From: Xanthostigma xanthostigma
Lineage: Eukaryota; Arthropoda; Insecta; Raphidioptera; Raphidiidae
Direction: 5' to 3'
Length of the DNA stretch: 64,000 bases
NCBI GenBank assembly: GCA_963575645.1
Contig: OY754469.1
Coordinates: 23,206,001 to 23,270,000, forward strand
Below, one piece after another: positions 22,347 to 59,682 of the stretch. The notes under the pieces were generated by a model that worked only from the letters and a program-made list of their open reading frames with translations, searched no databases and was not told where the DNA came from. Numbering within the stretch: position 1 is the stretch's first letter; each line of letters begins with the position of its first letter. Position numbers and translations under genes: made by a program.

Positions 22347-22758
22347 CTTAGGGTTATAGTGACAGCTAACAATATATGCAGATATTTTTAAAATGTGCTA
22401 ATTAATCCCTTTCATTTGATACCCAATACGGCATCATTGAAATGATATTTTTTTTAGTTCATGACTTTATGTCCTCTAGAAGACGCCATATTTAATTATT
22501 TAATGTGACATAGCCTATAATCAGTGAACGATCAAAACGTTTTCAACGATACCTCATTAATTGTCAAAATATGATATGTGGTTTAGAAGTTATGATGGAA
22601 CAGATGAACATACATACATAGCTACCCACATACATACCTACAGGTCAAACACAAAACCCTCCTTTTGCTTGCCGTAGTCGGCTAATAACGAGTAGAAGGC
22701 AAACGCAAGCAAGTATGGCGAGTGTTCATCTGCGAGCCGCAATTAATTAGCTCAAGAC

Positions 22759-24335
22759 CCCGTAACACTAAAATCCTATGGATCTCAGAATAGGCCAGGT
22801 CCTGGATATTTGGGAAATTCAAACCGTGCTTAACAAAATAATAAATTGGTTTGCAGGCTGGAGTGGGCCGGACCGTGAAAAAGGGGTTACTTCCGGTCAC
22901 CCAAAAGACTGTTATCCTATGCATCTCCGAATAGAATGTTGTTTAATTTTACGTTCTTAACGTGCTTAAACTCGGTAGGTTGGCGGGTTCCAGTGGGTCG
23001 AAACCCCCGCCAACCGCGTGTTAAGTTGATTTGCAAAATAGGTATTCTTATCTCATAACCGAATAGGTTGAAATGACATTTAAATGAATGGTTTTAACAT
23101 TTAAAATCGTTTCGTGGTGGATTGGCGGGAGGTTGGCAGTTCATTGAAAAAAGCAATTGAATTTTTTAATGAAATTTTTTTTACATAAATGTAAAGATCA
23201 CATACCAGTTTTATAGCAAAACTACGTTTATATTATTTTTTAGCTTCATAATTAAAAAGTTATATGGAATTTAAATAGTATATTAACATATAAGTGCATA
23301 AAAAGGTCTTTAAAACACGCGTGATTTTTCGAGCACGACGGCGCAGCTGGAGTGCTCGAAATAGAGCAAGTGTTTTAAAGACCAGTTATCCACGAATACT
23401 TTACGCTATTTTTTTTATTGGTGCAATTTGAAATCATAAATACTGGTATTATTACTACAAAAAAATGGAAATAAAAACTAATAATGTAAAATGGTTGAAT
23501 TCGTGATGTGACATCAGTAGGTATACCTTTCGTTTTCATGGAAATGAGAAAAACAGAAATTAATTTGCAATTTGTCAATTGTCATTAAAGATTATTTGTT
23601 TAATAATGTTTCAATAAAGGTTTTGCATATTTTGTTAGTAATATTTTATTTGACGTTACACGCTACTCCTGTCAAATCAATAATCAAAAAATTCTCGTGT
23701 TGTTGATGTTCCCATGGTAACTTTAAAAAACGCGCGTTTTTGAAAGTTCGATTCAAACACTCTGAGGCGTACTTTAAATAGGTAAAATAGGGCACCAATA
23801 AAAAAAATAGGTAAAATAGGGCACCAATAAAAAAACTACTTTTTAGCTCCGATGACGTCGTAATGTTTTTATAGCTCTGTATCCATGGTTAGTTTGATAG
23901 TACGTATAATATACATGTAAACAAAATAAAAGTTAAAAGTATTTTTAAAATCCACAGGTATAACTTTTTAATTATGAGGTAAACAAATAAAATAAACGTT
24001 ATTTTGCTATAAAACTTGTATGCGATTTTTCCATTTATGTAATAAAAAATTTATGTCAAAAATTTAATTGCGGTTGGCGAGGGTTTCGGCCCACCGAAAC
24101 TCGCCAACCTACCGAGTTTAAGCACGTTAAGAACGTAAACTTCAAAATGAAGTAAACAACATTCTATTCGGAGATATATAGGATAACCAGTGACCGGAAG
24201 TGACCCCTTTTGCACGGTCCGGCGCACTCAAGGCTGCCCACCATTGTATTTTTTTAACATGGTTTAAATTTCTCAAAAATCCATCAACTGGCCTATTCGG
24301 AGATTCATAGGGTTTTAGTGTTACGGGCTCTCGTG
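22759..24335. repeat. 1.6-kb fold-back repeat
   Basis: 'cgtaacactaaaatcctatg' and 'gtgcttaaactcggtaggtt' on the left match the reverse strand at 23950-24335. The arms are 380-510 bp with indels. The centre (23300-23900) is unpaired and contains a tandem duplication of about 29 bp ('taggtaaaatagggcaccaa') at 23776-23832. No coding region is evident. Confidence 0.75.
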
Positions 24336-24879
24336 CTATAATACGAGTGCTGAAAACAGCATGTCTGACGCATAAAGATGTATTTAGCACACTAGCTGCA
24401 CATTATTCAATTATAGGAACTTTTTTTAAATTATTTTAATTAATTTTATTGGATTCTATAAACACTGCTTTATTGATTTAAAAGAGGTTTATACAAAAAT
24501 CTCACGTACGACATAATGATATGAGGGATTCTTACTTCAGTTCAATACAATATTTAAATAGTGACGACCAAACTTGTTCACCTAGACCTAGTGAAAATAT
24601 AATCTGCTAACTTGTTGATAATATGGAATAACTGTGCAACAAATAACTCCTCATAATATTGTCAAAGACTGTTGTTATTTCTCAAAAGTTACTCTATATT
24701 TAGATTATAAACCTGAAATGAAACGTGACCAAGACAAAACTGGATGTATTGAATTTTTAGTGATGTGGTCAGTTCATAAAATAGCATTTAAAGTAGGTGA
24801 CACTGGTGTCACCTAGTGACGAGTTTGTGTCGCCTGGTGAGTAGTGACGTACGTAAGTTTGCACCGCCCAGTGTATAGT

Positions 24880-26861: not shown

Positions 26862-27944
26862 TAGTGGCGTGTGTAAGTCGGAAAAAATGCGAAAATGGTA
26901 AATGTTTTGAAGCGGAATGAAACTATTTTCCCTCCCCGTTTTAAAGGATGCTGAACACGATGGTGGCGTCACCCCAACGAGGGTGGCCCAACCTCTCAAA
27001 CCGGTCAAAAACCACCCCCGAGAGGGGTTAAACGCGATTTACTAGGTTTCCCTGCAGAAAGAAGTACTTTACCTTCGTTTTCGAGGATGCTGAGCACGGT
27101 GGTGGAGTTGGATATCGCGTCCGACTCCTATCAACCCCTCCACCGGCCAATACTCATCCCCGAAAAAAGTGATTTTTTTTTGCAATATCAACGGTAAATA
27201 TATGTTCTCCCCCCGTTTTCGACGTTGCTGAGTACGGTGGTGGTGGTGGATATTGCGTCCGACCCCTATCAACCCCTCGACCAGCCAATAATTACCCCCG
27301 GAAAGGGTGATTTTTTTTTATGCAATATCAACGGTAAATATATATTCTCTCCCCGTTTTCAAGGTTGCTGAGCACGGTGGCGGTGTTGGATATCGCGTCC
27401 GACCCCTACCAACCCTTTCACCGGCCAATACTCACCCCCGAAAAGGGTGATTTTTTTCCCATTCTCAATATCTTAGGAAACGGAGACAAATGTGTTTCCT
27501 GGTGATAATAAAAAAAATTCATCCCTTCCGGGGGTGAGTATTGACCGGTGAAGGGGTTGGTAGTGGTCGGACGCAATATCCAACACCACCACCGTGCTCA
27601 AAAATCTCGAAAACGGGGGGAGAACATATATTTACCGTAGATATTGCAAAAAAAATTTACCCTTTTCGGGGGTGAGTGTTAGTTGATGGAGGGGTTGGTA
27701 AAGGTCGGACGCGATATCCAACACCACCACCGTGCTCAGCATCCTCGAAAACGGGGGTAAAGTACTTCTTTCTGCAGGGAGACCTACTAAATCGCGTTTA
27801 ACCCCTCTCGGGGGTGATTTTTGGCCGGTTTGAGAGGAATTCTGACGCCGCCATCGTGTTCAGCATCCTCGAAAACGGGGGGGGGGAGGTAGTTTCATTC
27901 CGGCTCCAAATATTTACCGGTCCTCCGACTTACACACGCCACTA
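26862..27944. mobile_element. Modular fold-back element, family C copy 1
   Basis: Termini TAGTGGCGTGTGTAAGTCGG and its reverse complement bound the element. Inside, modules of about 150 bp ('gctgagcacggtggtgg', 'atatcgcgtccgacccct', 'gggtgattttttt', 'caatatcaacggtaaatata') run forward three times (27090-27470) and reversed twice (27520-27780). The outer arms carry 'aaaaccacccccgagagggg'. There is no transposase. Unequal module number between arms distinguishes it from a simple palindrome. Confidence 0.8.
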
Positions 27945-48060: not shown

Positions 48061-48207
48061 ATCGGGTATTTAGTTATTACAATACTGATATATTTATATT
48101 TTTTATTGACGTGAAAATTCTACATCTTTTTTTTTCTACAGCTTTTTTATTATTTTTATTTACTTCGCAACCAACTGTGTATCCAAGCTTATTTATATAT
48201 TACACAG
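48061..48207 (-). repeat. 3' LTR, truncated (147 bp)
   Basis: It is identical by eye to 52180-52326 of the 5' LTR, but the first roughly 30 bp in element orientation are replaced by pol sequence. The pol stop codon falls inside this LTR. An AATAAA lies at 48102-48107. Confidence 0.85.
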
Positions 48208-51200
48208 CTGGTACCAGGCGACTTAAGTTCACTGATTCCTGTTTGCCGTTTATGTCCAACAAGAAATATTCGTTGCTAGGACGAGCAATGATACGATACG
48301 GCCCTGCGTATGGTGGTTGTAGCGGAGGCTTAACTTTATCGACTCTGATAAATACGTGCGAACTGTCGTATAAATTTTTGAAAACAAAAGAACTACGTTT
48401 GTCGTGTCGGGCTGCTGGAGTTGGCTGAACAAGGCGCATTCTTTCTCTGTGTTTATTGAGAAAAGAAATAGGATCTGGAGGAAGGTCAGTGTCGAGGAAA
48501 AATTCTCCGGGCATTCGGAGTGATATACCGTAGACAAGCTCAGCCGCTGAAGCTCCGATGTCTTCTTTAAGCGCGGTTCGAAGTCCTAGGAGAACTATGG
48601 GAAGAACTCCGACCCAATCGTTGGTCTCGTGGCACATTATGGATGCCTTAACTGAGCGGTGCCAACGCTCGATCATACCGTTGGATGCCGGATGGTAAGC
48701 TGTCGTTCTCGTCTTTTTGGTACCGACAAGTTTGGTGAGCGCTTGGAAAATGACGCTCTCAAATTGTGAACCGCGGTCAGTCGTGATAGTGACCGGGGTA
48801 CCGAAACGAGAAATCCATGCTGACATGAAGGTATCAGAAATAGTTTCGGCGGTGATGTCGGATAGAGGAACAGCTTCCGGCCAACGAGTAAAACGATCGA
48901 TCATGGTGAGCAGGTACGAGCAACCGCGTGACGGCGGTAGCGGTCCAACCAAGTCGACATGTACGTGGTCGAAACGGGTATCGGAAACATCAAAATTTCC
49001 GGTTGGAGGCTTGCAATGCCTCGAAATCTTGCTGCGCTGGCATGGCAGGCAAGTTCGAGCCCATTGATTGACGTCTTTGGCCATACCTGGCCAAATGTAT
49101 TTTGTGACCATCATTTTCTTGGTGACTCGTCCGCTGGGATGGGAAGGGCTGTGAATGATGTCAAAAATGCGCCTTCGGAGGGGCGCGGGAATGTAGCGTC
49201 GGTGTATCTCGGTTGAGACGTCGCAGTAAACTGGAACATCCGGATCGTCCACTCTCAGTCTGACGAGTGTCAAGCTGCTGCCGTCTTGGAGGAGACGTAG
49301 GAGTTCAGGATCGGCGTCCTGGGCTGCTTTCAATTCGTTTGGAGTGATAGCGACAGGAACTTCAATGACCTGGACCCGGGAGAGAGTGTCAGCTGGAACA
49401 TTGTCTTCGCCTGAAACGTGAACAATGTTAGTCGTGAATTGACTGATGAATGTGAGCTGACGACCTTCGCGCAGCAATGACGATTTGGCGTTGGGCCTGA
49501 ATGCGTAAATGAGTGGTTTATGGTCTGTCTTGATCCGGAGTGGGCATCCTTCGACTAAATCGCGGAAATACTTAATTGAGCTGTAAATGGCTTGGAGCTC
49601 TCTACCATAGGCTGAATATTTCTTTTGGGCGTCGCTGAATTTTCTGGAAAAGAAGGCGAGCGGTTCCCAGTTATCGTCGTGAAGTTGTTCTAGGACAGCT
49701 CCGATGCCAAAATCGGATGCGTCGGTCCGGATAGCCAACTCTGCGTTGTCCAATGGATGTTTAAGAAGTGCTGCGTTAGCAAACTGCTCCTTGGAAGCGT
49801 TAAAAGCTTTTTCAGCTTCGGAAGTCCAGGAAATTGGGCGACGGTCTTTCTTCTTAGCGCCGGAAATGCAAGCATGAAGCGGAGCTTGAATCTCTGCGGC
49901 GTGAGAAAGGTGGGGTCTGTAGAAGTTGATCATTCCGAGAAACTGTCTCAGTTCAGCGATAGTCGTCGGTTTGGGAAATTCCTGGATGGCTTTCACTCGC
50001 TCAGCCAAAGGCTCAACGCCTTCCGAAGTAACGTGATGACCCAAATAATCTATTTCAGGAACTCCAAAAACGCATTTGTCCGCGTTGATTGATAAGCCGA
50101 AATCTCGAAGACGCTCCAACACGGTTCTGAGGTGTTTTTCATGCTCCTCAGGAGTTTTCGAGAAAACCAGAATATCATCGATATACTCAAAAACGAAATC
50201 TAGTCCTCTAAGGCACGTGTCGATGTAGCGTTGGAAAGATTGAGCAGCATTACGGAGTCCAAATGTCATGACATTGAATTCAAAGTTCCCGAATGGTGTG
50301 ATTATTGCAGTCTTTTTGATGTCATCTGGAGCCATGGGAATTTGATGAAATGCGCGATGTAAGTCTAACTTGGAGAAGATCTTACATCCGCGCAATGATG
50401 ACGAAAAGTCGTGGAGACGTGGCACGTTGTAGCGATCTGGAATGGTGATTGCGTTGAGATCTCGGTAGTCTCCACATAGTCGGAAATCGCCATCCTTTTT
50501 AGGCACAATGTGCAGCGGACTAGCCCATTCGCTTTGCGAAGGCTGGCAAAGTCCTTGGTCGATATATTTCTGAAAATGTGCTTTGGCGATCTTTATTTTA
50601 TGTGGCGGCAGGCGACGAGGTCGATGAGCTACCGGAGGACCTTGTGTGATGATGTGATGATAGACGCCACGGTCTGTAACTTTAGAAAGTTGCGATGGAC
50701 GCGTCACATCAATAAAATCAGAAAGCAGGCTCCGGTATGGCGAGGACCAGACGATTGTTGTCAACGAAGGCAAGCTGCTGGAGACAAAAGAGCTGTGAAC
50801 GGTAAGACCCGTCGTTTTGTCGATTATAGTTCTTGCTTGCAGATCTATTACTAGTCCGAAATGGTAGATGAAGTCGGCTCCTAGAATCGGTCCGGAAACG
50901 TCGGCCACGATGAATGTCCAGGTGAACGGACGTCGTAAACCAAGGTCCATCGTGAGGCAGACTCGTCCAAAAGTTTCGATGCGTTTGCCGTTCGGTGTAA
51001 AAAGCGCGAGAGTTACCAGTTCCACGATTTGATTCGCGCACGATCTGGGCAGAACGGATACATCCGCTCCAGTGTCGGCTAAGAAATTTAGGCGTGACGT
51101 GAAATCTTTGATAGACAAGCGTTTTTTAATGAAGTCACCCTCGATCGCTTTAACTCGAGGGTGTTCTACTAGTTTTCCTGATTCGGCTTTGGGGATTCTT

Positions 51201-51262
51201 TCCAGCTGCATGGATCTTGGCATTTCCTCGCTCGTTCTCGAAAACGCCTGTGATAGAAACAA
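48200..51262 (-). CDS. Pol polyprotein (protease, RT, RNase H, integrase)
   Basis: The 1020-residue frame encodes the replication enzymes. The protease has the DTGA motif at 63-66. Reverse transcriptase spans about 240-430, with the first catalytic Asp in KLDLHRAF (300) and YIDD at 360-363. RNase H follows with Asp514 (RTDASDF), Glu555 (GRELQAIY) and Asp580 (KTDHKPL). The integrase has the H-H-C-C finger at 704, 708, 738 and 741, and a DD35E core at 770, 829 and 865, then a GPY-type module (YAGPYRII, about 985). The frame ends within the truncated 3' LTR, so the last residues are set by the deletion and the normal C-terminus is probably missing. Expression would need a -1 shift from gag; the ATG at 51262 need not be used. 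Confidence 0.9.
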
Positions 51263-52050
51263 AGTTTAGAGGTGGAGGGCGAGCGATTGCGGAAGTTTTG
51301 TCTTCCTACGCTCTGGCTTCTGCCTCTGGATTGGGCGATATTCGCTTCCAGCTTGTCAAGGCGGTTGATTATAGCCTGAAGAGGTTCGGTTATTAGGAGG
51401 TTGCTTGGAACGGTGCTATGAACCGAAACTTGGTTAATAGTTGAGCGAGAAATTTCCAGCATTTTGTCTGCTTGCGCTGACAACTGATCGAGTGTGGAAG
51501 CTGAACCGATCACCAAAATACGACGAATATCTTCCGGCATTTGTTCAAGGAAGAGCGTTCGAAGCAGGGTTTCGTTACACTGTCCTGCGGCAAGATTGCG
51601 GAGTTGTTGGAGATATACAGTGGGTTTTTCACTTCCTAGAGGATGACCATGAAGAAGACGCCGAATATTGGCTTCTTCTGAAGGGGCAAGGGCACTAAGG
51701 ACTCGTTGTTTTAAACTATTATACTTATCTCTCTGAGGAGGATTCAGGATCAAGTCCCTGCAGAGTGAGACAAGCTTCGCGTCGAAGTTACTGGCCACGT
51801 GTTGAAATTTAGACGCGTCTGACGTAATTCTGAATAGGGAAAATTTCAGCTCTGCCATGGCGAAATAACTTTGTGGATCTTCGTGCCAGAAGGGTGGAAG
51901 TTTGACGGTGTGCACAGCTCCCAGGACATTCTCGTCGGTGGACTGCGAAGTGCTGGGTTGTGATGTCTGCGGGCTGTGTTGAGGCGCAGGTATGCCGTTT
52001 TCGATGTTATCGGAGCCTATCATAACGACAAACTTATGTATCAGCGTCAC
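51169..52050 (-). CDS. Gag polyprotein of the CsRn1-like element
   Basis: The 293-residue protein forms the capsid and nucleocapsid of the element's particle. After a low-complexity N-terminus (Ser/Gln/Pro-rich, about residues 20-40) comes [18 protein letters not shown], a start typical of insect Gypsy gag capsid domains, then the conserved [11 protein letters not shown] and LLHGHPLG regions. The C-terminus has a basic [18 protein letters not shown] stretch and a CX2HX9CX3C motif (CFYH ... CQDPC) in place of the usual CCHC knuckle; this CHCC form is the CsRn1 signature. The first ATG of the frame lies 129 bp downstream of the LTR edge. The frame overlaps pol by 94 bp. No internal stop is seen, so it could still be expressed. 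Confidence 0.85.
51187..51193 (-). other. Candidate -1 frameshift heptamer CCCAAAG
   Basis: In the gag frame the codons are C-CCA-AAG, the X-XXY-YYZ arrangement, and a slip of -1 gives CCC-AAA and enters pol. It lies in the gag/pol overlap, 18 bp before the gag stop codon. I did not identify a definite downstream stem or pseudoknot. Confidence 0.55.
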
Positions 52051-52158
52051 CAGATCAAACTTTACGTGTTAAAATTTGTGAAAAATTTGACGCAATGTGG
52101 CAACGAGATTTTCGCCACTATATTACTGCCGTTCACGCACTAATAACTAGCGATTAAG

Positions 52159-52176
52159 ATCACGTCGGGGTCACCA
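52159..52176 (-). promoter_or_regulatory. Primer-binding site, tRNA-Trp
   Basis: On the plus strand, ATCACGTCGGGGTCACCA equals the 3' end of insect tRNA-Trp with its CCA tail; the element strand is its complement. It lies three bases inside the 5' LTR edge. This choice of primer is typical for CsRn1-type Gypsy elements. Confidence 0.85.
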
Positions 52177-52179
52177 ATT

Positions 52180-52357
52180 ATCGGGTATTTAGTTATTACA
52201 ATACTGATATATTTATATTTTTTATTGACGTGAAAATTCTACATCTTTTTTTTTCTACAGCTTTTTTATTATTTTTATTTACTTCGCAACCAACTGTGTA
52301 TCCAAGCTTATTTATATATTACACAGTTGGTTGCGACTTGCGTAACTAACCGCCACA
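52180..52357 (-). repeat. 5' LTR (178 bp)
   Basis: In element orientation it starts TGTGGCGG and ends CCCGAT. It contains a TATA-like TATATAAATA (52309-52318), an AATAAA signal (52221-52226) and a 15-bp inverted repeat around the TATA-like motif. Confidence 0.8.
52309..52318 (-). promoter_or_regulatory. TATA-like box in the 5' LTR
   Basis: TATATAAATA on the element's coding strand, in the loop of a 15-bp stem. It is the best candidate for the element's promoter core; no transcription start can be defined from sequence alone. Confidence 0.4.
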
Positions 52358-52530: not shown

Positions 52531-53192
52531 TTTGTTCTTCAAAGATCCTCTTACGTCATTCGACTGTATTGTACAATATCCCGCGGTGACATTATTATTG
52601 GGCTTTTAAATATTTTTCTTTTGATATAAGTAAATGAATAACTTTAATTAAAATTTTATTTTTAAACAAAGTTCTGATGTTGAGTCAAAAAAATCCGAAC
52701 AAAAATATAAACTCAAGAAATAAGATTATGTATTTCATTTTAAATTATTTTTATTATCTTAATTAATTAGATGCTTATACCGACACTGTACTTCTCCCAT
52801 AATAAAATAATTGACATGATCTTCGATGCTACAAAATAATATGTCATGCACAGTTGTAGAGTAGAATACATAACCAAAGTGGACGAATAATGCACCTGTA
52901 TTACATGTTATAAATTTGTTAAAATCCGTAGGTGAAAAAATATATGATTAATTATTTAACGGCCTGACAGTTGAATTTTTTTTTAAAGATTTTTCAGAGA
53001 TAATATTTTTTTTTGGTATCTATAGTCAAGAAATATAATAAAGAGAATGTTCGACTATTTTTTTTTTTAAATTCGTATTCATGGTTTCAAAATATAAACA
53101 GCCTTATGTATGATTTGAAAAAATTCTGTCGGTACGTTTATAAATTGTGTCAAAAAATTATTTCTTATTTCATTTCCGAGAATTTTTCAATA
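52531..53192. other. No gene recognised
   Basis: AT-rich sequence; the upstream part of a 95-codon frame that begins at 53013 is low-complexity and the recognisable part starts at the internal ATG at 53193. Confidence 0.35.
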
Positions 53193-53300
53193 ATGGCTTG
53201 TGTTAGTAATTCGTGCAGTTACGTTAACTGTAAAAATTGTAGACGAAATTCAACGGGGTTAAGTTTTTACAGATTACCTTTAATATGTCAGTATTCTTAA
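53193..53300 (+). CDS. Possible THAP-type zinc finger exon (partial)
   Basis: From the ATG at 53193 the frame reads MACVSNSCSYVNCKNC and then GLSFYRLPL before a stop. This fits the start of a THAP domain: an early pair of cysteines about five residues apart (C3 and C8), then a G-x-S-F-x-R-x-P segment. The distal C-x2-H pair that would complete the zinc site is not in this frame, and I could not place a second exon. It may be the first exon of a host THAP gene or a remnant of a P-element-like transposase, which also uses an N-terminal THAP finger. No splice donor with a strong consensus is seen before the stop. Confidence 0.35.
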   Translation: MACVSNSCSYVNCKNCRRNSTGLSFYRLPLICQYS

Positions 53301-54060: not shown

Positions 54061-55107
54061 ATGTACCTACTGCTTTTTCTGAAAGTTTCGTCCTCCATAA
54101 AAATCAGAACAATTTTTTACAGCCGCATTTGGAGGATTAGCTGAGAAATGTAAACTGGATTGCAACATTTTCCGCTGCAGATTATTTTCTGTGCAAGCTA
54201 AAATAATACCTGTAAGTATTAGTGTGAATTCCAGACCAATCTAGATCTGATCAGTTTCAGTTTCATAACAATCCCCATCAAAAACATGCGGGATTCTGAA
54301 ACATACAAGAACAGTAACTACTCATTTATGTTTTTGCCATAACGGAAATATGTCTACAAAACAACAATTTGCAATATCTATTTGATGAAGATAATCAGAA
54401 AAAATTTGTCCCACTTTTCAATTATAATTATTATAATAAGTGAATTATATGTAACGAATAATAAATTAGCTATAAAAATGTTTGATATGTAGTTTATTCC
54501 GCATTTGTAATTTTATTTTATAATTTATAATATTGGTAAAACATGTGCATCAGAAAGTGTTCATCTCATAATTATGTAATATTTTATTATATGAATTATG
54601 TTTACAATACGGAATTGACATAGCTATAGTCTTATCAACGTGGTTTACATATTATTGTTTACAGATTATTATGATTAGTCTATTTTTTTATCAAGCTGAT
54701 CATATTTTTCATTGACACTATGTGATTCGTTGTCGCATTATTATACTTATGTGTTTACAGAAACAAAAATTTAGCCCGCATGTTGATATGAACAAGCAAA
54801 CATATTTACTCATCTGTCATCGATAGCCACAATTTTCAAAACGGGTGGTGGTTATTACAGACAGAATCTACCACTGTGAAAAATCTAAACTCTAAGTCTC
54901 ATTTGTTAAGTTTTAAATTAAAAACTTTTCAATTTTTGAAAATATTAATGAACATAAATAACTAGAGTGGCCAAAAGTCACATCATCAATTATTATGTTT
55001 ACTTTATGACATTTAAACCCGTCTCCGCTCTAATATATCTACCTAAATAATTTCGTCGCAGGACCGTAGCTTTGACTGAAATCTATCTAAAACCGTATTG
55101 ATTGATT
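54061..55107. other. No gene recognised
   Basis: AT-rich sequence without repeats that I could pair. Confidence 0.4.
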
Positions 55108-56263
55108 GGCAATTGTCGCTTAGAAACCGCTGTTTGGCAACCGTTCTTAGGCAACCGTTGTCTGGCAACTGTTGCTTAGCAACCGTCGCTAGGCAACAGT
55201 CGCTTCTCAACTATTAATTATTTAACAACCGTTGCTTGGCAACAGTTGATAGGCAACTCTTGCTAGGCCACCGGCGCTGGACTTCCGTTGCTTAGCAACC
55301 GTTACTTGGCAACCGTTGTTAGCAATCGTCGATGGCAACCGTCGCTAGACTCTCGTTGCTTAGCAGACGTTGCCAGACAACCGTTGCTTAGCAATCGTTA
55401 TTTGGAAACCGTTGCTTAGCAACCGTCACTTGTCAACAGTGCCTGGCAACAGTCTCTTAGCAATAATTACTCGGCAACCGTCGTTAGGAAACTTCTGTTT
55501 AGCAAACGTCGTTAGGCAATGGCTGCTTAGCATCCGTTGTCTAGCAACCTTTACTTGGCAACCGTTACTTAGCAACCGTCACTTTACTACGGTTACTTGG
55601 TTTCTAAGCAACCGTTGATAGGCGACCGTTTCATGGCAACCGGAACTGGCAACCTTTGCTTAGCATCCGCCACTTTACAACTATTGCTTGGCAACCATTG
55701 CTTAGCAACCGTTACTTGGCAATCGCTGCTTAGCAATCGTCACTTGACAACAGTTGGTTGGCAACCGTTGCTAGCTTACGATACATGGAAACTGTTGCTC
55801 ATTAATCGTTTTACAGGCAACCGTTGCTTAGCATTCGTTTTTTGCAACCGTCGCTAAGCAAGGCTGCTTAGCAGCCGTTAATTGGCAACCGTCACTTGAC
55901 AAAGGTTGCCTGGCAATCGTTATTTAGTAACCGTTGATAGGCAACCGTCGCTTAGCAACCCTCGTTATTCAATGACTGCTTAGCTACCGTTACTTGGCAA
56001 CCGTTGCTTAGCAACCTTTACTTGGCAACTGCTGATTAGCAACCGCCACTTGAAAACGGTTGTCTGGCAATCGTTGCTTAGAAACCGTCACTTGAAAACG
56101 GTTGTCTGGCAATCGTTTCTTAGAAACCGTTACATGGCATCCGCTGCTTTTCAACCGTTTATTAGCGACCGTCGCTTGGCAACCACTGTTTTCAACCTTG
56201 TGTAGTAACCGCGAACCTGCAAACCGTTGCTTGACAACCGTTTAATAACAACCGTTGCGAGAA
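55108..56263. repeat. Degenerate 14-bp minisatellite of X-box-like palindromes
   Basis: The unit is near GTTGCTTAGCAACC. About 80 units run across 1.15 kb, for example GTTGCTTAGCAAC at 55287-55299 followed at once by GTTACTTGGCAAC at 55301-55313. Each unit is palindromic (GTTGC ... GCAAC) and fits the RFX X-box pattern RYYRYY-N-RRYRRY with a one-base spacer. Frames of 82 and 86 codons at 55370-55857 only translate the repeat. Many units carry substitutions. Confidence 0.85.
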
Positions 56264-56722
56264 TTTTCAATTTCAATGAAAGAACCGACAACCTCCCGCT
56301 AATCGAACACGAACCGATTCTAACAGTGAAAAACTTTACTTAAATCAACCCTGCTTTATACGGGGCTGGCGGAACATGCCGACTATGCTAAAAACGTAAG
56401 CTATAAAATAAAGTGAACAACACTATTCGAAGATACATATTACGACCAATTTTTTTAACGTTATATTAGCGGTATATTAACGTAATGTTAAGTTTATCGT
56501 TTTGTTAGTGCTATGTTAACGAGATAATAACGTGATTTTAACGGATTTTAACGTATTGTAAAAGTTTTGCAACACTAATACGGTGAAGCCAAAGTTTTGA
56601 CTACTCCGTCAAGTGAGTCGCAACTCGCAGATCCGTGCTGTCGAATGGGGCGTAGCCTCGTGAAGCAAGGTTATAACACGTTGGAAACGCGGAACCGTAG
56701 GCTCCTCTTCTGTTGTCGCTGC
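56264..56722. other. No gene recognised
   Basis: 'gcggaacatgccgactatgc' near 56369 and a GC-richer patch at 56580-56720 do not match a known element. Short words of the type 'ttaacgt' recur at 56470-56550. Confidence 0.35.
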
Positions 56723-57012
56723 CTAGTACAGTCTTTGGGTAGTTTTACCTGGAAAGTTTTCCGGGAGTGTTGAAAATTGGTGATTGTATAGATTTCGATG
56801 TGCTTTTTCTGAATTTCTACTTTTCCACCTCGTATCTTTGCCGCTCTGGCCGCTTAAAAATAGTTTTTTGACAATATCTTTTTCCCGATATACGAAGTGG
56901 CAAAGTAGAAATTTGGAAAGAGCACATCGAAATCTATAAAATCGCCAATTTTCAAAACTCCCGGTAAACTTTCCAGGTAACCTCTTTTATCGGCACCAAA
57001 TGACTGTACTAG
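56723..57012. mobile_element. Fold-back MITE with CTAGTACAGTC ends
   Basis: CTAGTACAGTCTTTGG at the left and the reverse of CTAGTACAGTCATTTGG at the right bound a 290-bp inverted repeat ('gaaaattggtgattgtatag' against 'ctataaaatcgccaattttc'). The CTAG may be part of the end or a duplicated target. No coding capacity. Confidence 0.7.
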
Positions 57013-57017
57013 CCGTA

Positions 57018-57057
57018 TTTTATCTCAATCGCGTGCAAAGCCGCGGGTAGCAGCTAG
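57018..57057 (+). mobile_element. 3' tail of a Helitron-like element
   Basis: 'atcgcgtgcaaagccgcggg' and the terminal GCAGCTAG before T match the 3' end of the elements at 7582 and 28646. The 5' part is not recognisable upstream of the adjacent MITE. Confidence 0.55.
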
Positions 57058-58020
57058 TTTAAGCATAATGTAGAAAACTAACGTAATTAGTAGGTACTTA
57101 TACTGAATAGGTCAAAGTAATACTTCGGCAGTATCTATGTCATAGTAGAATAATTCATTTTAAAAGGTTGATATTTATTTTCAATGCAGAAGTACCTCTA
57201 TTAATGACGGCAATAAATTAGTATTGTAAATAAAATGATAGCAAAAACTAAATGAGTTATAATGATTTTATGGCCACTCGAAAATACCTTGATGATTAAT
57301 AAACTACGCTATTATTTTTCTTACAGCATTAGCAAATAATTTACGGTAGTCTAAATCAGCTCCAGGCAATTTAAAATGATGATTTACAGGAATGAAAATA
57401 CTTCACTATATTTTTAAATTTTTTTCAATATTTAAAAAGTAGTATTTTAGCGTAGTTTAATTTAATACAAAACCGTAATGGCAACCGATGCTTGGCAACT
57501 ACTGCTTGGCACCCGTTGCTTGGCTACCGTTTTTTGGAAACTGCGTTTGATTTTCATACTTTTACTATAGAAATTATAGTACGACTAAGTTTCGCATTTC
57601 TTTTATTTTTCCCGCACTAGTGCGAAATGGGTTATTTACCGCTGTACACAGACATAAAAAGCAGCTATTTGCAAAAAATATATTGGTTCTTGTAGTTGGT
57701 TTTAAAATAAAGAATAAAATCGAAATGAAATCAATTATTTTGATTGATTAAAAGAAACAAATCTTTGATTAACGTCTGATAGAACTCTTCAATAAATAAA
57801 AAAAAATTATTGATGATTAAAAGAAATTCAAGGCCACTAGAGCATTTATGAGTCGTCTCTTAATACCCTTTCCTTGATAGTGAAAGAACCTGCAACTGCG
57901 AAGGCCTGTTCAGATTTCACGCTGGTAGGAGGAATAATTAATCGACAATTAATTCATAAGTATCATTATTATGTAGAAATTCTCACAATTACAAAATATC
58001 AGAGCAGTCAAAGTACGGCG
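57058..58020. other. AT-rich DNA with a small X-box-like cluster
   Basis: 57476-57543 holds four or five further units ('atggcaaccgatgcttggca') of the minisatellite, 1.2 kb beyond the main array. No gene is recognised. Confidence 0.45.
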
Positions 58021-58448
58021 TTAAGAGTATTCGTCCCTGCAAATACCCCCTGCACCCTTCATCTCAAATCTTTTCCCCTCGCCTAAAAACGGTTCGCGCT
58101 CTCCCGACGCTATTTTTAAAGCTAGAGGGTTCTGGTAAACGCCAAATGAATGACAAAGAATCAGACTACAGATCCTTCAGGCGAATTTTTTGAAAAAAAA
58201 TTCCTGAAAAAACTTACAACTTTTTGAAAAAAATAATAAGTTACGTAATATTTCACACGTAGGCGAAACTGTTTTTCAAAAAATTCGCCTGAAGGATCTG
58301 TAGTCTGATTCTTTGTCTTTCATTTGGCGTTTACCAGAACTCTTTAGCTTTAAAAATAGCGTCGGGAGAGCGCGAACCGTTTTTAGGCGAGGGGAAAAGA
58401 TTTGAGATGAAGGGCGCAGGGGGTATTTGCAGGGACGAATACTCTTAA
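58021..58448. repeat. 428-bp inverted repeat, GC-richer arms
   Basis: Arms of about 170 bp are reverse complements with few mismatches: 'ttaagagtattcgtccctgc', 'gttcgcgctctcccgacgct' and 'atccttcaggcgaatttttt' on the left each have an exact or near-exact partner on the right. The centre is AT-rich. No domain in the 70-codon frame that overlaps it (57874-58086). Confidence 0.8.
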
Positions 58449-58749: not shown

Positions 58750-59682
58750 TAGTGGCGTGTGTAAGTGGGAAAAAACGGGAAAATGGTAAATATTTTGAGC
58801 CTGAATGAAACTACCTTCCCCCTCCCGTTTTCGAGGATGTTGAACACGATGGCGGCGTCAGAATTTCTCGTTCGGGTGGCCCAACCTCTCAAACCGGCCA
58901 AAAACCACCCCCGAGAGGGGTTAACGCGATTTACTAGGTTTCCCTGCAGAAATAAGTACTTTACCCCCGTTTTCGAGGATGCTGAGCAGGTGGTGGTATT
59001 GGATATCGCGTCCGACCCCTACCAATCCCTCCACCGGCTAATACTCGTCCTCGGAAGGGGTGATTTTTTTATATATATATGAAGCTTATGTAATGTATAT
59101 ATAATAAATATGTATTTGCCGCTGATAATAGGAAAAAAAATTTCACCCCTTTCAGGGGTGAGTATTGGCCGGTGGAGGGGTTGGTAGGGGTCGGACGCGA
59201 TATCCCACACCACCACCGTGCTCAGCAACCTCGAAAACGGGAGGTGAACATATATTTACTGTTGATACTGCAAAAAAAAAATTCACCCCTTTCGGGGGTG
59301 ATTATTGGCCGGTGGAATGGTTGGTAGGGGTCGGACGCGATATCCAACACCACCACCGTGCTCAGCAACCTCGAAAACGGGGGGAGAACATATATTTACC
59401 GTTGATATTGCAAAAAAAAACTCACCTCATTCGGGGGTGATTATTGGCCGGTGGAGGGGCTGGTAGAGGTCGGACGCGATAAAGTACTTCTTTCTGCAGG
59501 GAAACCTAGTAAATCGCGTTTAACCTCTCTCGGGGGTGGTTTTTGGCCGTTTTGAGGGGTTGGGCCACCCCAACGAGAAATTCTGACGCCGCCATCGTGT
59601 TCAGCATCCTCTAAAACGAGGGGGAGGTAGTTTCATTCCGGATCAAAATATTTACCAGTCCTTCGACTCACACACACCACTA
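58750..59682. mobile_element. Modular fold-back element, family C copy 2
   Basis: Termini TAGTGGCGTGTGTAAGTGGG and the reverse of TAGTGGTGTGTGTGAGTCG. It has one forward module (58960-59060) and two full reversed modules (59160-59440), the second followed by a partial one that is cut at 'gtcggacgcgataaagtact' (about 59469). Outer arms match copy 1, including 'aaaaccacccccgagagggg'. The frames of 91-105 codons here read the modules and are not genes. Confidence 0.8.

Follow-up and report, generated by a model that had tools for sequence, protein, structure and literature searches.

The genome of Xanthostigma xanthostigma harbours about 15 old, scattered and decaying tandem arrays of a 14-bp near-palindrome, some of them apparently attached to mobile-element sequence, and the resemblance of their unit to the RFX X-box is therefore probably accidental. 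The arrays are most readily regarded as a neutrally decaying, dispersed and partly element-associated palindromic minisatellite, a reading which we hold to be fairly probable and which is suggested by three observations: the half-sites are no better kept than the attached non-coding body, compensatory changes are no commoner than expected, and there is no surplus of intact units.

Structure of the array

The window, i.e. the whole 64,000-nucleotide stretch of DNA that was analysed, corresponds to C6:23206001-23270000 of a genome of 623 Mb in 28 contigs. It contains the following runs of the unit:

55102..56263, + strand: array of ~84 imperfect 14-bp units, consensus GTTGCTTRGCAACC
57479..57543, + strand: small second cluster, ~4 units of the array's 14-bp repeat, past the end of the body

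Tandem Repeats Finder together with a cyclic 14-column fit placed the array at 55102-56263, in agreement with the sequence-only reading, which had described a 1.15-kb array of about 80 tandem sites; the fit gave 84 units, complete or not. The program itself reported 55102-56184 with a period of 28 (39 copies, score 361), periods of 14 and 42 as well, and the small cluster at 57479-57531, which had previously been noticed near 57476-57543 and is indeed present at 57479-57543. The pooled consensus unit GTTGCTTRGCAACC is composed of a 13-bp palindrome and a 1-bp linker. When the array was compared with GTTGC-NNN-GCAAC, 10/10 half-site bases were found at 5 positions, nine at 20 and eight at 25, and the earlier statement that many units keep both half-sites was thus overstated, with 5 positions perfect and 20 one base short. 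Elsewhere in the window, at least eight half-site bases are matched at 17 positions, two of which (with nine) belong to the small cluster.

Among the seven arrays examined for pairing of units into 28-bp dimers, pairing was clearest in L003, where second neighbours are 0.83 alike and first neighbours 0.62. It was weak in L008 (0.66 and 0.57, respectively), L007 (0.64 and 0.59) and L004 (0.68 and 0.64), and slight or absent in L001, L002 and L009. Amplified unit types include GTTGCTTAGCAACC, GTTACCTAGCAACC and GTTGCTAGGCAACT. Like dispersed minisatellite and satellite families in general, the arrays described here combine a short unit with tandem copies at a number of loci, on more than one chromosome, and with local unit types; they are unlike the usual families in that the unit is a palindrome matching a transcription-factor site. 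A search of the window against Rfam at the gathering score gave no match to a known RNA. Two other arrays of the window, at 27076-27457 and 59113-59481, have by eye one common 140-bp unit in opposite orientation.

Related arrays in the genome

DNA searches in which the window's array and L002 served as queries gave the same set of 14 further arrays, a number to be taken as a lower bound, as further, more decayed arrays may have escaped; a third search, with L009 as the query, recovered every related array except C8:26.85. Their positions are as follows:

C1: 34.44, 38.361 and 38.364 Mb
C2: 26.78 and 33.40 Mb
C3: 34.11 Mb
C4: 23.80 Mb
C5: 17.34 Mb
C6: 28.62 Mb
C7: 34.92 Mb
C8: 26.85, 31.769, 31.774 and 32.14 Mb

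With the window's array included, the 15 arrays form 13 clusters after the merging of two close pairs. The array matches are 64-84% alike and the arrays are about 0.1-1.2 kb long. Two additional loci (C2:35.60 and C2:28.75), which match only 59 bases of the L002 flank and are without a unit run, were left out of the count. The palindromic dimer pattern, with up to two mismatches allowed, occurs at 90 places genome-wide, each found on both strands, versus 0 for the reversed control, and the 50 of these 90 places that were listed, including each of the 31 that have at most one mismatch, are all located in these arrays.

Most arrays have differing 1.5-kb flanks. In the case of L006 and L010 (C1:38361450-38364975), one X-box-like array of different length is found in each of two inverted arms of ~1 kb, which are 92-99% identical and surround a minisatellite with a period of roughly 80 bp. 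These arms could be those of a foldback transposon, but no target duplication was visible by eye on C1, so that a local inverted duplication is equally likely. The C8 arrays L012 and L014 are copies of one another, in part in inverted orientation.

Of the matches to six 13-base variants of the unit in the open-licence literature, that in PMC4221739 lies within a cloning oligonucleotide. Nothing was found in that literature linking X-box, RFX and minisatellite, and the open-licence papers listed for RFX with tandem arrays, binding sites or satellite DNA included nothing relevant.

The shared body and its terminus

On the right-hand side of the array, 5 of the 15 loci (the window, L004, L005, L007 and L012) have in common a body of ~390-650 bp. 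The corresponding features of the window are:

56258..56723, + strand: non-coding opening stretch of the body, with many AACGT motifs, common to L004, L005, L007 and L012
56724..57008, unstranded: insertion within the body, holding a foldback
57009..57061, + strand: last stretch of the body, whose end is GCAAAGCCGCGGGTAGCAGCTAGT; rolling-circle-like 3' end (imperfect hairpin, CTAG)
22748..24338, unstranded: separate long-inverted-repeat element of 1.6 kb, with arms of several blocks that include body sequence

The foldback of the insertion has arms at 56745-56835 and 56890-56980, which are 90% complementary. The 24-base end GCAAAGCCGCGGGTAGCAGCTAGT (57035-57058), in which the hairpin adjoins CTAG, is present genome-wide in 407 copies (212 + 195) with up to two mismatches, versus 0 for the reversed control, and the body therefore terminates like a high-copy mobile element. 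Among the copies listed, the end is distributed over C1-C13. The window's terminus contains one stem mismatch, and 50 of 200 shuffles fold as well; one of the rarer variants listed forms a perfect 6-bp stem at -7.8 kcal/mol, which is equalled by 7 of 200 shuffles. Of five spellings of the body's end, only that of 11 bases had text matches in open-licence papers.

The first third of the body also occurs in the arms of the 22748-24338 element (model positions 12-235 at 23152-22918, and 132-235 at 24063-24180), and the body thus resembles a patchwork of mobile sequence. These findings suggest that the body consists of mobile-element sequence. A single transposon carrying all arrays is not supported, given that only 5 of the 15 share the body; a body profile (E up to 0.01) run against the other 10 array loci with ~1.5 kb of flank per side gave no match.

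The end of the body partially resembles the 3' end of the Hel-2 Helitrons of Lepidoptera, which according to PMC4344730 have a 3' stem-loop, a CTAG terminus and internal tandem repeat arrays; here CTAG and tandem arrays are present as well, together with a candidate stem-loop. The likeness is incomplete: compared with the Hel-2 elements of that source, no 5'-TC end or subterminal inverted repeat was found here, the repeat unit differs, and the hairpin adjoins CTAG and, in the copy of the window, is imperfect. According to PMC4067079, some DINE-1-like and Helentron-type elements bear tandem repeats. The present sequences are like the DINE-1/HINE non-autonomous Helentrons of that account in being non-coding, with tandem repeats and a 3' palindrome in some copies; the ends, subterminal inverted repeats and T-rich insertion given there were not recognised here. 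The left flanks of the five body-bearing copies share no sequence and thus do not define a 5' end (TC), and neither subterminal inverted repeats nor a target duplication of the element was found. As no common 5' end was found, membership in Helitrons or Helentrons is not claimed.

Other mobile or inverted sequences in the window include a retroelement at 48118-52267 on the minus strand, with two long open frames (293 and 1020 aa) that look gag- and pol-like by eye, and short flanking repeats TTCTACAGCTTTTTTT, as well as a near-perfect foldback at 58021-58448 with 182-bp arms, 97% complementary, and 64 bp between them.

Match to the RFX X-box

The X-box consensus forms used here were taken from PMC2375033, which gives RYYNYY-N1-3-RRNRAC for Drosophila dRFX, along with stricter forms. 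As the sequence-only reading had proposed, the 14-bp unit fits the X-box with a one-base spacer, the consensus GTTGCTTRGCAACC matching GTTRCY-N-RGYAAC; the inverted half-sites GTTRCY/RGYAAC and the one-base spacer are shared with the X-box of PMC2375033. Unlike the sites reported in that source, which lie upstream of target genes, those described here form ~84 decayed tandem copies.

A comparison with shuffled sequence by means of these consensus forms, akin to the matrix scoring which had been proposed as a check, came out in favour of the match. The form GYTRYY-N1-3-RRHRAC occurs 35 times in the array (both strands counted), the mean of 500 base-shuffles being 0.14 and the maximum 2, and GTTRCY-N-RGYAAC occurs 16 times (8 palindromic places) versus 0 in 500 base-shuffles. 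The other 61.4 kb of the window (55001-57600 excluded) contain 14 and 0 matches, respectively. Since the array is built of near-palindromes, however, the comparison with base-shuffles is a weak one. As a better control, random palindromes with the same half-site letters were used, 0-7.6% of which fit the X-box, depending on the consensus; a chance fit to one of many factors is hence unremarkable. Across the 15 arrays, 76 of the 393 complete units fit GTTRCYNRGYAAC, and 180 of 393 fit the loosest X-box form with a one-base spacer.

Genome-wide, GTTRCYNRGYAAC has 2831 matches versus 206 for the reversed control, and 2265 of these are instances of GTTACTGAGTAAC, counted over both strands (1105 + 1160; reversed control 2 + 1). 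At the three loci that were read, GTTACTGAGTAAC is held by a dispersed repeat of ~340 bp:

L068:1475-1812
L069:1475-1821
L070:1205-1539

If these three are typical, most GTTRCYNRGYAAC sites in the genome would derive from one repeated sequence, and the motif alone therefore says little. The RFX DNA-binding domain (PF02257) has three matches over the curated cut-off in the genome, and the two that were inspected lie in plausible exon frames.

The density of X-box matches far over that of shuffles and the RFX domains encoded in the genome are what could be expected of a working RFX decoy or regulatory block, possibly for ciliary genes, as had been put forward initially. Against this reading, intact sites are few, the half-sites decay no more slowly than the body, covariation and an excess of intact sites were not detected, and the bulk of genomic GTTRCYNRGYAAC matches is of the GTTACTGAGTAAC type; we consider it very improbable. 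A ciliary block is further disfavoured by the fact that we recognised no host gene in the window, where 82 open frames were inspected by eye (short exons could escape) and 10 were searched against Pfam, none scoring over the curated cut-off. An open frame at 53004-53300 (53194-53300 for the stretch starting with MACVSNSCSYVNCKNCRRNSTGLSFYRLP), located ~1.8 kb to the left of the array, begins by eye like a THAP zinc finger; Pfam gave no match for it.

Tests for constraint on the half-sites

In the same 10 pairs, body identity was 0.72-0.80 (mean 0.76), a figure raised somewhat by the use of ungapped blocks of at least 15 columns with at least half identical, versus 0.68-0.71 (mean 0.70) for the half-site columns (positions 1-3, 5 and 9-13), a figure lowered by the comparison of units all against all and not as orthologues. 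This comparison of present-day copies excludes strong conservation of the half-sites, not weak conservation. The cyclic 14-column model recovered 451 units from the 15 arrays, 393 of them complete. At the six mirror pairs, the observed and expected numbers of compensatory changes were 3/6.8, 2/1.6, 2/3.9, 11/12.6, 6/6.5 and 53/51.2; a hairpin or dyad constraint was rejected, as such changes are no commoner than independence predicts. In the 393 complete units, half-site mismatches per unit showed no overdispersion (p=0.11), intact units were not in excess (25% vs 23%, p=0.17) and the left half was not significantly worse than the right (0.65 vs 0.58, p=0.13). Mismatches in the left and right half-sites were weakly correlated (Spearman 0.107, p=0.034, arrays pooled), which would be expected if some units were kept whole and would be explained equally by the pooling of arrays of different age.

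A concentration of substitutions in the half-sites, which the sequence-only reading had named as a pattern that would refute an X-box array, was not observed: substitutions occur in every column, with positions 4, 6, 8 and 14 over-represented. The lowest information in the pooled units was found at positions 4, 8, 6 and 14. Columns 4, 6, 7, 8, 10 and 14, i.e. the RFX-degenerate, spacer and linker positions, have a mean of 0.80 bits vs 1.17 elsewhere, with an exact rank p=0.0043 among 3003 sets in the pooled data; this set was picked with the motif in mind and its columns are not independent events. For the spacer and linker columns alone, the exact rank p was 0.021. When six array groups were taken apart, p was 0.068 (window), 0.080, 0.012, 0.014, 0.048 and 0.016; L014, L017 and L018 are part of the pooled test and of none of the six groups. 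We read the pattern as reflecting either shared founder unit types or past selection during amplification.

The concentration of variation at these columns thus leaves room for a binding-site role at the time of amplification, in which the arrays would have been multiplied under selection for binding one protein, either RFX or a protein of a mobile element, and later released to decay. In line with this, the modal unit of all 15 arrays has GTT at 1-3, C at 5 and GCAAC at 9-13, while 23 unit types seen at least twice in one array place 45 of their 62 differences from the consensus at positions 4, 6, 7, 8 and 14, and the genome contains RFX DNA-binding-domain exons. On the other hand, the columns were selected in knowledge of the motif, C and T also occur at position 4, and neither mirror pairs, intact units nor the body comparison reveal present-day constraint; moreover, the units are related by descent, so that the columns are not independent samples. 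Such a past role seems unlikely. The negative tests for constraint lend better support to the other suggestion of the sequence-only reading, namely a palindromic minisatellite that fits the consensus by accident.

Chromosomal position

All 13 clusters are located at 0.326-0.689 of chromosome length on C1-C8 (the central 36%), and no array was found on C9-C28. When clusters were placed uniformly by simulation, an equally central set arose once in 200,000 draws; counting 9 clusters instead of 13 gave p=0.0001. As a control, a side repeat from the body search was located outside the arrays (30 rows, two of which, 0.6 kb apart, were merged); it lies in the central range at 18 of 29 places (Fisher p=0.009). 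Among the listed copies of the 24-base end on C1 (those with two mismatches extending to 78.4 of 84.2 Mb), 9 of 55 are central. Kinase-domain loci served as a third control: 124 of 538 first-look candidates were scored, and the 143 matches were reduced to 105 loci by merging rows within 100 kb. On C1-C8, 17 of 62 such loci fall in the central range, which does not differ from uniform (p=0.19). Their density is 0.13 per Mb on C1-C8 vs 0.28 on the rest, i.e. half, and by this proxy the arrays have been found only on chromosomes of lower gene density, in central zones. The distance to the nearest kinase locus is at most 1 Mb for three of the 13 clusters and 1.5-29 Mb for the remaining ones.

This distribution, with 1 of 200,000 uniform draws as central, could be taken to indicate a structural element of central, perhaps pericentromeric, zones, present as one to three short arrays per large chromosome. 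The arrays are, however, only ~0.1-1.2 kb long and decayed, none has been found on C9-C28, and another repeat is also biased towards the middle, if more weakly (18/29); a structural role is, in our estimate, very improbable.

Origin and significance of the arrays

According to the minisatellite reading, a 14-bp near-palindrome would have been multiplied in tandem, presumably by slippage or unequal exchange and in some arrays as 28-bp pairs, and the arrays would have reached at least 13 places on eight chromosomes. At least five of them are observed beside a non-coding body with a high-copy, rolling-circle-like (Helitron-type) terminus, and we infer that the element bearing this terminus may have spread them. 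Since then the arrays would have mutated about as fast as the non-coding sequence attached to them, and they now occupy the central parts of large chromosomes. The X-box match would be a property of the founder palindrome, probably an accidental one, and chance binding of Rfx to some units may occur.

Several observations fit this reading less well. The variable columns coincide with the degenerate, spacer and linker positions of the X-box (pooled p=0.0043), and mismatches of the two half-sites are weakly correlated (p=0.034). Ten of the 15 arrays are without a body piece in their 1.5-kb flanks, the 5' end and target duplication of the element were not found, and the window's terminus folds like shuffles. 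In addition, the central location of 13/13 clusters exceeds all controls and is only loosely explained. It is conceivable, if quite improbable, that a mobile-element family carried arrays of RFX-type sites which were selected during its spread to recruit Rfx or a protein of its own, and that its dead copies were left mid-chromosome on each of the eight largest chromosomes.

Should the arrays have served as binding platforms, they would illustrate how dozens of sites for one regulator can be scattered by a mobile element. As for the minisatellite reading, it carries a caution, namely that a founder palindrome and its tandem multiplication can be enough to produce, within a repeat, a motif match that is dense and statistically overwhelming. 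The attached non-coding body serves here as a neutral yardstick, and with its help sequence data by themselves settle much of the question.
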